NCBI RefSeq assembly: GCF_013114825.1
Contig: NZ_JAAVLX010000001.1
Coordinates: 124,001-188,000, forward strand
Direction: 5' to 3'
DNA length: 64,000 nucleotides
Origin: Bradyrhizobium australiense
GTDB lineage: Bacteria; Pseudomonadota; Alphaproteobacteria; Rhizobiales; Xanthobacteraceae
Made by a program: the position numbers and the translations under genes. The notes below the pieces were generated by a model. The model searched no databases, was not told the origin of the DNA, and saw nothing but the letters and a program-made list of their open reading frames with translations. Below, in pieces: positions 53,913 to 60,524 of this stretch (position 1 is the stretch's first letter; each line of letters starts with the position of its first letter).

Positions 53913-54537
53913 TGTCTCTCTCCGGGTTCTGCGTACCCGAGGACGAACGACCGGCGGGCCTCACGACACGCGCTCGAATTTTTCTCGCGGGCCGCCAACG
54001 CCCGCAAACCACCCATCTCGGTCCCCTGGAGGGTCCGCTCGTCGGCTGGGGATCATCCGTCAGATTCTCAGCACTAGTGAGGCGGCACGCCAGGCGCCAA
54101 CATCTGTGCAACTGCACAAATACAAGGCATGTCGCCTGTCCCTGGGCCGCGCAACTGTGGATTAAACTCGTAGAATCACGAGGTATTTCCGAGCTAACCC
54201 CCGAAATCGGGGTTGGCACATCGATTGCTTATTTGCTTCTCAGTCAATGACGACTGCCGTCCTACGGATGCCGAAGCCAGCGTTGGCGAAGGCACAGGGA
54301 TCAAGCGACCTCACCGAGGCGCTTGGAGCAGTCATCGGGACCATTTGCCACGAATTGCGCATCTCTGTTTCTGATCGAGCGTGACCGTGTCACCGGCCGT
54401 GCCGAGGCAGACCTGTTTGGTCCTGCGGAAGGCGACGCCCGGCACGCGCGCGAGGACGGCTTGGCTCACTTTACATCGGCGCGGCTGTGGTCGCCGGCGC
54501 TGGATTGAACCGTTTTTTGCGAACAAGGGGAACTGTA
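53913..54537. other. Gap without a recognisable gene
   Basis: About 600 bases between the DHFR-like fragment and the FNT channel gene. Short frames occur on both strands (for example 54323-54508 plus and 54332-54526 minus), none with a convincing start or family match. Base composition is lower in GC than in the neighbours around 54070-54250. It may be debris from the event that truncated the DHFR-like gene and left the IS scrap. Confidence 0.5.
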
Positions 54538-55350
54538 ATGGCCTATCTCGTGCCTTCGGAATTCGTGACCAAGATGGTCGATGCCGGAGAATCCAAGATC
54601 TTCATGTCGACGCGCGACACGGTCATCCGCGCCTACATGGCGGGAGCCATTCTGGCGCTCGCCGCCGCCTTTGCCGTTACGGTCAACGTGTCGACCGGCG
54701 TTCCGATCGTCGGCGCCGCGCTGTTTCCGGTCGGCTTTTGCATGCTGTATTTGTTCGGCTTCGATCTCCTGACCGGCGTGTTCGTTCTGTCCCCGTTGGC
54801 CTGGATCGACAGGCGTCCGGGCGTGACGCTGGGCGGCGTGCTGCGCAACTGGACGCTGGTGTTCATCGGCAATTTTCTCGGCGCCTTCACCGTCGCCGTG
54901 ATGATGGCGATCGTCTTCACTTTCGGTTTCACCTCACCACCCGACAAGGTCGGCCAGGTGATCGGAACGATCGGCGAGGGCCGCACCGTCGGTTACGCGG
55001 CGCATGGCGCAGGCGGCATGCTGACGCTGTTCGTTCGCGGCATGCTGTGCAACTGGATGGTCTCGGCCGGCGTCGTCGGTGCGATGATTTCGACCACTGT
55101 CAGCGGCAAGGTGATCGCGATGTGGATGCCGATCATGCTGTTCTTCTTCATGACGTTCGAGCATTCGATCGTGAACATGTTCCTGTTCCCGTCGGGCCTC
55201 CTGCTCGGCGGCAAGTTCACGATCATGGATTACCTGATCTGGAACGAGATCCCGACCGTGGTCGGCAATCTCGTCGGCGGCCTCGCCTTCACCGGCCTGA
55301 CGCTCTACGCCACGCACGTCAAGACCGCGCCGAAGCGCGTCGCCGCCTGA
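54538..55350 (+). CDS. Formate/nitrite transporter family channel
   Basis: 270 residues with six membrane segments in the FNT fold. AYMAGAILALAAAFAVTVNV is the start of the first repeat, GNFLGAFTVAVMMAIVF the second, and LFVRGMLCNWMVSAGV carries the conserved N-W of the central region; FFFMTFEHSIVNMFLFPSGL holds the FNT histidine motif. The pentameric family passes formate, nitrite or hydrosulfide. Placed directly before the phosphatase-kinase fusion, which in pseudomonads I recall next to nitrate/nitrite genes; nitrite is therefore the favoured substrate, not proven. Confidence 0.92.
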   Translation: MAYLVPSEFVTKMVDAGESKIFMSTRDTVIRAYMAGAILALAAAFAVTVNVSTGVPIVGAALFPVGFCMLYLFGFDLLTGVFVLSPLAWIDRRPGVTLGGVLRNWTLVFIGNFLGAFTVAVMMAIVFTFGFTSPPDKVGQVIGTIGEGRTVGYAAHGAGGMLTLFVRGMLCNWMVSAGVVGAMISTTVSGKVIAMWMPIMLFFFMTFEHSIVNMFLFPSGLLLGGKFTIMDYLIWNEIPTVVGNLVGGLAFTGLTLYATHVKTAPKRVAA

Positions 55351-55384
55351 CCGGCGATTGACTCGAGCGGGCCTCGACCGTCCA

Positions 55385-55484
55385 TAGCGTTTTCGAGCGA
55401 AGTGGATACCGGTTCGCGTGAAGAAAACGCGTCAAAACAGAAGTCTAGAGTTCGGTTCTGATTCAATCAGAACCGAAGCACTAG
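55385..55484. repeat. Palindromic repeat, ATTSAAT family (copy 2)
   Basis: TAGCGTTTTCGAGCGAAGTG, then GATACCGGTTCGCGTGAAGA and AAACGCG, form the first half. The second half holds a perfect 13-1-13 palindrome at 55451-55477 with arms TTCGGTTCTGATT and AATCAGAACCGAA. Related to 33721-33822. It lies between the FNT gene and the phosphatase-kinase gene. Confidence 0.7.
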
Positions 55485-55511
55485 TCGAGACCCTGCTCAC
55501 TGGTCGTGAAC

Positions 55512-57251
55512 ATGCCGCGCGAACTGAAAATCTCGGTTGGGCAATATTCTGACAAAGGTCGCAAGGAGACCAATCAGGATTTTCACGGCGTTCTGATTCC
55601 GGAAGAGCCGCTCCTCAGTCTGAAGGGCATCGCCATCGTGCTGGCGGACGGGATCAGCAGTAGCAGTGTCAGCCGGGTCGCGAGCGAGTCGGCTGTCAAA
55701 GGATTTCTCACCGACTATTACTGCACCTCGGAATCCTGGTCGGTGCGCACGTCGGCGCAGCGCGTGCTGGAGGCAACCAATTCCTGGCTGCACTCTCAGA
55801 CCCGGCGAAGCCAATACTCCTATGACAAGGACAGGGGATACGTCTGCACGCTGAGCGCAATGGTCCTCAAGTCGACCACCGGCCACATCTTTCACGTGGG
55901 CGACAGCCGGATCTACCGCCTGTCCGGTAACTCGCTCGAACAATTGACCAACGACCACCGCGTCGTCATTTCGTCCGAGCAGAGCTATCTCGGCCGCGCG
56001 CTCGGCGTGAACCCGCAGGTCGAAATCGACCATCTTACGTTCAGGATCGAGAAAGGCGACACTTTCGTGCTGGTCACCGACGGCATCTACGAGTATGTCG
56101 GCGACCGCGTCATTGCAAGGGCGATCAACGATAGCGCCGCCGATCTCGATCAGGCGGCCAAGGCGATCGTCGAAATGGCGTTCGATCTCGGCAGCACGGA
56201 CAATCTCACCGTCCAGATCGTCCGCGTCGATGAGGTGCCGGACGGCGGGGCGAGCGAAGTGTTCGCGCAACCGCATGAACTGCCGCTGCCGCCGCTTTTG
56301 GAGGCGCGGGCGGTGTTTGACGGCTACCGAATTGTCCGCGAGCTGCACGGCTCCAGCCGCAGCCACATCTATCTGGCCGTCGACATCGAAACCGACGCGG
56401 TGGTCACCATCAAGATCCCGTCGATCGATTTGCGCGATGATCCCGCTTACCTGAAGCGGTTCATGATGGAGGAGTGGGTGGCGCGGCGGATCGACAGCCC
56501 GCATGTGCTGAAACCGTGCCTGCTGCAGCGCAAGCGCAACTTCCTCTATGTCGCGACCGAATACATCGAGGGGCAGACGCTGACGCAATGGATGATCGAC
56601 AATCCGAAGCCAAGCCTGGAAACCGTGCGCGGCATCGTCGAGCAGATCGCCAAGGGCTTGCGCGCCTTCCACCGCAAGGAGATGCTGCACCAGGACATCA
56701 GGCCCGACAACATCATGATCGACGCCACGGGAACGGTGAAGATCATAGATTTCGGTTCGACGAAGATCACGGGCGTAGTCGAGGCCGAGCCATCGGGCAT
56801 GCGCAATGACATTCTTGGTACCCAGCAATACACCGCGCCCGAATATTTTCTCGGCGAGCCGGCGACGATGCGCTCCGACCTGTTTTCACTCGGCGTCATC
56901 ACCTATCAGATGTTGACCGGAAAACTGCCCTACGGTGCGCAGATCGCAAACGCGCGGACGCGCTCGCAATTCAACAAGCTGGTCTACCGCCCGGCGTCCC
57001 ATGGCGACCGAGAATTGCCGCAATGGATCGACGGCACGCTCGAGAAAGCCGTGCACCCCAATCCCAACAAGCGCTACGACAGCTTCTCCGAATTATTGTT
57101 CGACCTGCGCCATCCCAATGCGAACTATCTCTCGACGTCATCGACGCCGCTGATCGAGCGCAATCCGCTGCTGTTCTGGAAAAGCACAACGGTGGTGCTG
57201 GCACTGGCCGTGATCGTGCTGCTCGCCATCCAGCACGGCGTGCACTGGTAG
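55512..57251 (+). CDS. PP2C phosphatase-Ser/Thr kinase fusion, membrane-anchored
   Basis: 579 residues. Residues 1 to about 245 are a PP2C phosphatase with metal-binding Asp residues in SDKGRKETNQDF, VLADGISSS, HVGDSRIYRL, LVTDGIYEYV and GSTDNLTVQI. From about 275 to 540 a protein kinase follows: loop LHGSSRSHIYLAVD (poor Gly-rich loop), VTIKIPS (ATP Lys), HQDIRPDN (catalytic loop, with HRD changed to HQD and the usual Lys to Arg), IIDFGST and YTAPEYF. One membrane helix ends the protein (TVVLALAVIVLLAIQHGVHW). ATG 55512 (MPRELKISVGQYS) fits homologues; GTG 55506 adds two residues. Kinase and opposing phosphatase in one chain suggest a self-resetting switch, probably for nitrogen metabolism given the FNT neighbour. 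Confidence 0.93.
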   Translation: MPRELKISVGQYSDKGRKETNQDFHGVLIPEEPLLSLKGIAIVLADGISSSSVSRVASESAVKGFLTDYYCTSESWSVRTSAQRVLEATNSWLHSQTRRSQYSYDKDRGYVCTLSAMVLKSTTGHIFHVGDSRIYRLSGNSLEQLTNDHRVVISSEQSYLGRALGVNPQVEIDHLTFRIEKGDTFVLVTDGIYEYVGDRVIARAINDSAADLDQAAKAIVEMAFDLGSTDNLTVQIVRVDEVPDGGASEVFAQPHELPLPPLLEARAVFDGYRIVRELHGSSRSHIYLAVDIETDAVVTIKIPSIDLRDDPAYLKRFMMEEWVARRIDSPHVLKPCLLQRKRNFLYVATEYIEGQTLTQWMIDNPKPSLETVRGIVEQIAKGLRAFHRKEMLHQDIRPDNIMIDATGTVKIIDFGSTKITGVVEAEPSGMRNDILGTQQYTAPEYFLGEPATMRSDLFSLGVITYQMLTGKLPYGAQIANARTRSQFNKLVYRPASHGDRELPQWIDGTLEKAVHPNPNKRYDSFSELLFDLRHPNANYLSTSSTPLIERNPLLFWKSTTVVLALAVIVLLAIQHGVHW

Positions 57252-59691: not shown

Positions 59692-59870
59692 TCACATCAG
59701 CCCCTGTCCGGTGATGCCATGCAATATCGACGCCACAGTCGGCCCGGCCGCCTCTAAAACTGGCACGTGGCTTGCTGCGCAAATGCCCGACGCACAGGCA
59801 TTGGGCGGCGGCGCGGTCGGCCGTCCTCGCCTCGGCAAAGGCATTTTGGGGTTCGAGGGGAAGGGGCCAT

Positions 59871-60524
59871 ATGGCAAAGACCACGCTGACCATCTCCAGC
59901 AAGAATTACTCGTCCTGGTCGCTGCGCGGCTGGCTGTTGGCGAAATTCTCCGGCCTGGAGTTCGAGGAGGTCGTCACCGCTCCCGACGATGCGTCGGCGC
60001 GGGCTGAAATCCTGTTGCTGTCGTCGTCAATCCTGGTGCCGTGCCTGCGCCATGACGGGGCCACCGTCTGGGACACGCTGGCGATTGCCGAATACCTCAA
60101 CGAAATCATGCCGAACGCCGGCCTGGTGCCCGCCGACCGCGTCCAACGCGCCCATTGCCGATCGATCTGCGGCGAAATCCATTCCGGCTTCACCACGCTG
60201 CGCGCCTCGCTGCCGGTCAACCTGAAAGGCCATTTCCCGGGCTTCAAGATCTGGTCGCGCGCGCAGGCCGATATCGATCGGGTTTGCACCATCTGGGGCG
60301 AATGCCTCGCGGAATCAGGCGGGCCGTTCCTGTTCGGCGAGCGCACCATGGCGGATGCGATGTACGCGCCCGTCGTCACCCGTTTCATGACCTATGACGT
60401 GAAGCTCGAACCCGCGCTCGCGGCCTATGCCGGGACCATCATGGCAATGCCGGAAATGCAGGCATGGATCGAAGCTGCCAAGGCCGAGCCCGCCGATATC
60501 GAAGAACTCGAGGTCGAATATTAG
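59871..60524 (+). CDS. Glutathione S-transferase family protein
   Basis: 217 residues. TLTISSKNYSSWSLRGWLLA is the N-terminal thioredoxin-like start with the active-site Ser region, SSSILVPCLRHDGATVWDTL the cis-Pro and glutathione contact, and the helical C-domain ends in EAAKAEPADIEELEVEY. The ATG at 59871 begins MAKTTLTISS; a longer frame to 59772 has no family character. Divergent from phaZ with 179 nt between them. Substrate unknown; it is not closely like the GST at 53194. Confidence 0.9.
   Translation: MAKTTLTISSKNYSSWSLRGWLLAKFSGLEFEEVVTAPDDASARAEILLLSSSILVPCLRHDGATVWDTLAIAEYLNEIMPNAGLVPADRVQRAHCRSICGEIHSGFTTLRASLPVNLKGHFPGFKIWSRAQADIDRVCTIWGECLAESGGPFLFGERTMADAMYAPVVTRFMTYDVKLEPALAAYAGTIMAMPEMQAWIEAAKAEPADIEELEVEY

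Follow-up and report, generated by a model that had tools for sequence, protein, structure and literature searches.

What can be the role of a gene that encodes, in a single chain, both a protein kinase and a protein phosphatase, and that stands directly behind the gene of a membrane channel? The question is raised by a locus of Bradyrhizobium australiense (assembly GCF_013114825.1, contig NZ_JAAVLX010000001.1), located in the 64,000-nucleotide stretch analysed here, i.e., positions 124,001 to 188,000 of the forward strand, hereafter the window, from whose first letter coordinates are numbered. The channel belongs to the formate/nitrite transporter (FNT) family, and the second gene encodes a fusion of a PP2C phosphatase, a Ser/Thr kinase and a C-terminal transmembrane helix. 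The answer favoured here, with moderate confidence, is that the fusion would reversibly phosphorylate the transporter encoded with it, within one nitrogen-controlled uptake module. Of this module the anatomy, the conserved pairing, the promoter site and the neighbouring genes are observed, whereas what the channel carries, whether each enzyme is active, which protein is phosphorylated and what signal is read are inferences. The features concerned are the following:

54538..55350, + strand: FNT channel, 270 amino acids (Pfam PF01226, E 2.8e-60)
55506..57251, + strand: PP2C-protein kinase-C-terminal transmembrane fusion, 581 amino acids, single frame
55527..56234, + strand: PP2C domain, about residues 8-243, with D25, D48, D192 and D232 intact
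56313..57113, + strand: PknB/StkP-like kinase domain, about residues 270-536, from profile and structure matches
56688..56711, + strand: catalytic loop HQDIRPDN, residues 395-402, from the translation and the family alignment
57165..57239, + strand: predicted C-terminal transmembrane helix, residues 554-578, with P554 and W558 conserved, from the AlphaFold2 model and the alignment

Both enzyme domains of the fusion lie in the same frame (Pfam PP2C_2, E 2e-15; Pkinase, E 8.6e-38), and in the AlphaFold2 model (17-row alignment; mean predicted local distance difference test score, pLDDT, of 88.7) the helix of residues 554-578 stands at the C-terminus. The original prediction of an FNT channel beside a membrane-anchored PP2C-kinase with HQD in place of HRD and an arginine in the catalytic loop is thus borne out by the Pfam matches, the frame 55506-57251 and the loop itself, which reads LHQDIRPDNIM. 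Because the aligned family begins at M3 of the fusion, the ATG at 55512 is suggested to be a likelier start than the GTG at 55506. The channel is the sole PF01226 match of the genome, at 204.1 bits for a curated cut-off of 34.6, and stays below the NCBIfam equivalog cut-offs of FocA (TIGR04060, 112.5 of 290.1) and NirC (38.2 of 293); the fusion likewise stays below those of Stp1/IreP (111.9 of 230) and PASTA PknB (178.9 of 450). Among solved structures, the best sequence match of the channel is LCIA, an algal bicarbonate/nitrite channel.

A channel neighbour unique to this strain would have spoken against the original prediction; this is not what is found, and a strain-specific coincidence is ruled out by surveys of the genus and of the phylum. 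Of 98 genomes of the genus, 74 have an orthologue of the fusion (identity of at least 65%), and the same set has one of the FNT protein (at least 81%). In all 71 genus loci with a full-length fusion, the gene just before it is FNT, encoded on the same strand; in three genomes (G077, G049 and G030) the fusion is broken across frames or contigs, its N-terminal part adjoining the FNT gene by coordinates. Among the 30 loci returned for the window's family, the fusion adjoins 22 of 22 FNT genes of at least 76% identity and 0 of 8 at 42-45%. At the level of the phylum, a homologue of the fusion (E of at most 1e-60) is present in 128 of the 398 genomes sampled; from roughly 150 rows listed, 102 were fetched with their flanks, the top-scoring ones first and then by our own choice, small-genome members of one family being under-sampled. 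Once open reading frames of at most 330 amino acids, those of at most 150 bits and repeats with identical 300-residue tails had been dropped, 171 distinct homologues were left besides the window protein; for 159 of these a transporter gene lies no more than 1.5 kb away, upstream and on the same strand in 153. The partner is an FNT gene for 121 homologues (77 from the window's own family, 44 from outside), a NarK-type MFS gene for 38 and neither for 12; NarK, NirB, NasA and NrtA serve here as labels for Pfam matches to MFS_1, NIR_SIR, Molybdopterin oxidoreductase and NMT1_2, respectively. The adjacency of FNT and fusion is not due to chance.

As regards catalysis, the HQDxR signature, whose conservation the original prediction had proposed to check, proves to be shared by nearly all FNT-linked homologues, with Q396 in 116 and R399 in 118 of the 121; lysine occupies the latter position in 38 of 38 NarK-linked copies. 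The residue set of Hanks-type Ser/Thr kinases is complete in the fusion, i.e., K303, E322, D397, N402 and D415, of which E322 is kept in 120 and the other four in all 121 FNT-linked homologues, and the loss of the catalytic Asp or Lys that marks a pseudokinase is not seen. On the phosphatase side, D25, D48, D192 and D232, presumably the metal-binding residues of PP2C, are kept in 121 of 121. Without the arginine of HRD, the kinase is of the non-RD kind; non-RD kinases usually need no activation-loop phosphorylation, non-RD loops occur in active kinases, and arginine at the lysine position of the catalytic loop is found in active Src-family kinases. Since neither enzyme has lost its catalytic residues, an inactive kinase appears unlikely, and the weak or inactive enzyme of the original prediction finds no support in residue conservation, although the glycine-rich loop is degenerate; the fusion is probably capable of attaching as well as removing phosphate.

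Eight homologues (L144-L149, L151 and L156; e.g., L146:5986-7701) have lost catalytic residues, with D25S, D192Q, E322Q and the loss of D397 in 8 of 8, and apparently form a clade of double pseudoenzymes, in kinase and PP2C alike. None of four reference genes (FNT, NarK, NirB and NasA) was found near them. All eight adjoin an inorganic pyrophosphatase-like gene, and seven are flanked on their opposite side, within the fetched stretch, by a phosphofructokinase-like gene, the Pfam check of these neighbours covering L146 only.

The history of the pairing was followed in a tree for which the loop columns had been removed from the alignment, with 82 rows left after removal of those at least 80% identical to a kept row or with fewer than 400 aligned residues. 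There, 42 of 43 FNT-linked rows, together with one row having neither partner, make up one side of a branch with an SH-aLRT support of 100, and the partner label (FNT or NarK) changes twice; the tree was obtained by a quick method, with midpoint root and weak deep branches (SH-aLRT 61), and does not show which of the two partners came first. Since FNT- and NarK-linked copies separate with two changes of partner, the constant partner is a transporter and not one pathway. HQDxR is a mark of the FNT lineage, not a proof of co-adaptation. The idea that lysine or arginine in the loop repeatedly tracks the partner was discarded, with two partner changes only, 2 independent pairs, and L089 and L100 being FNT-linked with lysine. 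A third lysine copy counted as FNT-linked, L082, has its nearest FNT gene upstream of the neighbouring fusion and a NarK gene upstream too; this one small genome carries an FNT-type and a NarK-type fusion in tandem. The genome of the window itself holds a paralogue of the fusion (32% identity, loop HRDIKPDN), just 3' of an MFS transporter gene called NarK-type from its gene context, in a cluster that includes NirB and a molybdopterin nitrate reductase, i.e., nitrate-assimilation genes.

The likely substrate of the channel is indicated by the neighbouring genes, which were counted after loci shorter than 8 kb had been dropped, leaving 77. Among 39 dereplicated FNT-linked loci, cynS (cyanase) is found in 14, NirB in 12, NasA in 4 and an NrtA-like gene in 3, at least one of the four being present in 24; for 31 NarK-linked loci, the respective counts are 0, 20, 15 and 6. 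The difference in cynS between FNT- and NarK-linked loci gives a Fisher value of 1.2e-4, uncorrected for kinship. In the window's family, nirB, FNT and fusion follow one another on one strand in 9 loci, and cynS lies opposite FNT in 3. On plasmids, cynS stands beside the pair in Psychrobacter and Acinetobacter johnsonii and beside the fusion in Sulfitobacter, and an Azospirillum plasmid has the pair without cynS. NirB and cyanase each make ammonia from a toxic monovalent anion, and nitrite and cyanate are the putative substrates of the channel because cynS or NirB genes lie nearby. For Pseudomonas pseudoalcaligenes, one study reports a possible cyanate uptake via nitrate/nitrite transporters (PMC6627978).

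Control by nitrogen is suggested by a site upstream of the channel:

54214..54229, + strand: sigma-54 (-24/-12) site TGGCACATCGATTGCT, exact TGGCAC-N5-TTGCW, some 310 bp upstream of the FNT start codon

Counted over both strands of the 7.4-Mb genome, the exact pattern is matched 35 times, for 7 with the reversed-pattern control, and both transporter-fusion operons of the genome stand behind one, that of the paralogue (C43:202887) lying some 120 bp upstream of the NarK-type start codon. Among 148 distinct FNT upstream regions, taken from FNTs of at least 60% identity, a few without a linked fusion and those of one family not being independent, 47 carry an exact and 59 a one-mismatch sigma-54-like site, as compared to 0.03% and 1.5% in Markov shuffles. 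A site is present in 85 of 94 upstream regions of the window's family, and the nine without it correspond to the nine loci where nirB immediately precedes FNT, which is what a position inside a longer operon would lead one to expect; among the 54 regions from outside the family, a site is present in 21 (2 exact), and 15 NarK-linked upstream regions hold 2 exact and 6 one-mismatch sites. The NtrC-like motif GCAC-N7-GTGC occurs in 107 related upstream regions as 31 exact and 37 one-mismatch copies, for 0.4 and 15.7 expected. According to a study of Bradyrhizobium sp. DOA9, rpoN mutants show lowered nrtA (41484), fnt (41483) and 'prkC' (41482), the same site at -74 is predicted for fnt and prkC, and a part in the cell wall or in cell division is considered for 'prkC' (PMC13207237). 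Locus L068, where an NrtA-like gene (NMT1_2) is divergent from the FNT-fusion pair, fits the DOA9 layout, and the DOA9 'prkC' would be this fusion and belong to nitrogen uptake. The link to the channel and to nitrite or nitrogen metabolism, advanced in the original prediction, has good support from the conserved pairing, the nirB, cynS or nas neighbours at some loci, the sigma-54 sites and the rpoN study; the degenerate glycine-rich loop considered below, cyanate as a substrate and the sigma-54 site go beyond it.

On the channel, the candidate cytosolic phosphoacceptors are S24, T25 and T28, in the N-terminal segment where the first helix begins, and T263 in the C-terminal tail. Among 31 dereplicated linked FNTs, Ser or Thr occupies positions 24, 25, 28 and 263 in 90%, 97%, 90% and 97%, respectively. 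For comparison, 40 unlinked FNTs were assembled, 39 hand-picked from listings and one in L117; of the 14 distant ones, 4 have Ser or Thr at position 24, 2 at position 25 and 1 at position 28. PflB binds the N-terminal helix of FocA, where gating is presumed to occur (PMC11841067). At L290-L296, FNTs of 48-54% identity directly adjoin NirB and have no adjacent fusion; they keep the STRD motif and a tail Thr, and a fusion from another locus might act on them.

Taken as one nitrogen-controlled uptake module, the FNT and fusion genes would operate as follows. The sigma-54 promoter, probably active under nitrogen limitation, would drive FNT, and the channel would admit a small monovalent nitrogen anion, namely nitrite and/or cyanate, to be converted to ammonia by NirB or cyanase. 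Tail-anchored in the membrane beside the channel, both of its enzyme domains facing the cytosol, the fusion would probably phosphorylate and dephosphorylate its partner transporter, most plausibly at the S24/T25/T28 segment or at T263, such that uptake of the toxic anion could be stopped fast when ammonium is plentiful. The NarK-linked branch would act likewise on NarK-type nitrate transporters. More broadly, and more tentatively, the family may represent a widespread post-translational switch, in which a membrane-tethered kinase-PP2C protein gates the nitrogen-anion transporter encoded with it and which was moved once between the unrelated NarK-type and FNT superfamilies, a proposal that we hold as possible, though somewhat less likely than not.

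Several observations weigh against reversible phosphorylation of the channel within such a module. The usual glycine-rich loop is absent from the kinase: in LHGSSRSH the first two glycines of GxGxxG are missing, as in nearly all FNT-linked copies, and with so degenerate a loop low kinase activity is possible. The 12 partnerless homologues comprise the eight dead enzymes, L202, L162, L093 and L127; L202 sits at a contig edge and its other half (L303) adjoins FNT, and the catalytically intact ones found are L162 (near a contig end), L127 and L093, which has HQDxR and adjoins NasA, L093 and L127 being real exceptions to the transporter pairing. As to the phosphoacceptors, close FNTs that have no fusion gene beside them keep T25, T28 and T263 in 5 of 5 and S24 in 3 of 5, about a third of 21 intermediate unlinked FNTs keep S24 or T25, and descent alone could explain this conservation, which is a pointer and not a proof. 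None of cynS, NirB, NasA or NrtA is present within the fetched stretch in 15 of the 39 FNT-linked loci, and no nitrogen enzyme gene was seen in the window's flanks. In this genome cynS lies on another contig and, since 94 of 98 genus genomes have it, its presence is uninformative within the genus. Moreover, no NtrC-like site was found before the window's promoter, though relatives have them, and the -74 site predicted for DOA9 (PMC13207237) is a weak match and differs from the site found here in relatives.

The same nitrogen module could instead have the fusion acting on NirB, cyanase, nitrate reductase, PII or NtrBC, with the transporter merely co-transcribed. NirB, NasA and CynS genes often adjoin, and a cyanobacterial PP2C acts on PII; yet the enzyme neighbour varies (nirB, cynS, nas or none) where the transporter keeps its upstream, same-strand place, and the FNT-linked loci devoid of the four nitrogen genes likewise argue for the transporter, leaving this explanation rather unlikely. 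A kinase domain reduced to a pseudokinase, sensing a nucleotide or metabolite and steering the PP2C, would be in keeping with the non-RD loop, the change from lysine to arginine and the lost glycines. To this are opposed the near-complete retention of K303, E322, D397, N402 and D415, the arginine of active Src-type kinases and the eight truly dead homologues, which lose E322 and D397 along with PP2C residues, and such a role appears improbable; the pseudokinase call by motif was itself rejected on residue conservation.

It has also to be considered that the channel carries formate, bicarbonate or another anion and that the module belongs to carbon metabolism, given that FNT proteins carry formate, that the best solved-structure match is LCIA and that cyanase also uses bicarbonate. 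Against it, nitrogen is indicated by the sigma-54 sites, by nirB and cynS as neighbours, by a paralogue lying in a nitrate cluster and by the reported rpoN dependence (PMC13207237), and this explanation is very improbable. An anti-phage kinase was rejected as well, the PADLOC matches of the fusion being those of a kinase domain against many models and FNT having no match. Reversible phosphorylation of the co-encoded transporter thus stays the preferred reading.

The intergenic gap between FNT and fusion, 155 bp here and about 60 bp in many relatives, contains two further features:

55402..55438, + strand: copy of a dispersed repeat, from a repeat search of the genome itself
55451..55477, no strand: perfect inverted repeat with 13-bp arms and a 1-nt loop, found by eye

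The repeat has 12 genome copies at up to 3 mismatches (control 0), and in this strain repeat and palindrome together (55402-55477) could attenuate read-through. Elsewhere in the window, a second exact sigma-54 site (59761-59776, + strand) overlaps the start of frame 59772-60524, a glutathione S-transferase whose likely start lies further in; a glutathione S-transferase with a similar site is listed as rpoN-dependent in the DOA9 study (PMC13207237). Among the plasmid matches listed, 25 of 30 bear the RefSeq product name 'bifunctional protein-serine/threonine kinase/phosphatase', with no function assigned; of the five plasmid regions opened, 3 have an annotated FNT beside the fusion, 1 is devoid of annotation and 1 begins at the end of its record. 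Plasmids typed as mobilizable (L325, L326 and L329), one of them of 17 kb (Psychrobacter), carry either the FNT-fusion pair or cynS together with the fusion.

How does the module compare with known systems? PknB/StkP and Stp1/PrpC pairs have the kinase and PP2C folds in common with it; those are separate genes, with extracellular PASTA sensors and a cell-wall role, whereas the fusion here is one chain with no extracellular domain. The plant system of NRT1.1, the kinase CIPK23 and the PP2C phosphatase ABI2 resembles the proposed one in placing a nitrate transporter under a kinase and an opposing PP2C (PMC7348705, PMC9778958). It differs in being made of separate proteins, with another transporter family and calcium dependence, and no homology of the modules is implied. 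Escherichia coli FocA/PflB has the same channel family, FocA being controlled by enzyme binding and not by phosphorylation (PMC11841067). In nitrifiers, FNT is proposed as a cyanate transporter from the proximity of its gene to cyanase, without experiment and citing Spang 2012 and Palatinszky 2015, in a paper whose accessible part contains the words kinase or phosphatase 0 times (PMC10753782). In Pseudomonas aeruginosa, PA1782 is given as one of three Ser/Thr kinases in one source (PMC8560001) and, in another, nirB is PA1781 and nasA PA1783 in Pseudomonas (PMC9866376); the PA1782-type kinase of this nas region is likened here by nas-gene position and is only a candidate member of the family. 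In the open-access literature, subscription papers lying mostly outside the search, no account was found of the transporter-fusion rule, of the FNT branch or its HQDxR signature, of an FNT phospho-switch, or of a cyanase with this kinase.

Many bacterial Ser/Thr kinases have no known substrate, and here gene order names one candidate partner of a kinase across very distant genomes. By analogy with the plant nitrate transporter, phosphorylation may serve bacteria to gate the channels through which nitrogen is taken up; if true, we know of no earlier case of a phospho-gated FNT, and the system would be a bacterial counterpart of NRT1.1/CIPK23/ABI2. It would also bear on the FNTs beside cyanase, so far only proposed as cyanate channels, and it suggests that 'prkC', read as a cell-division kinase in the Bradyrhizobium rpoN study (PMC13207237), belongs to nitrogen uptake. 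In rhizobia-like and many other Pseudomonadota, nitrogen control would then be tied to fast gating of the entry of toxic nitrite and cyanate.

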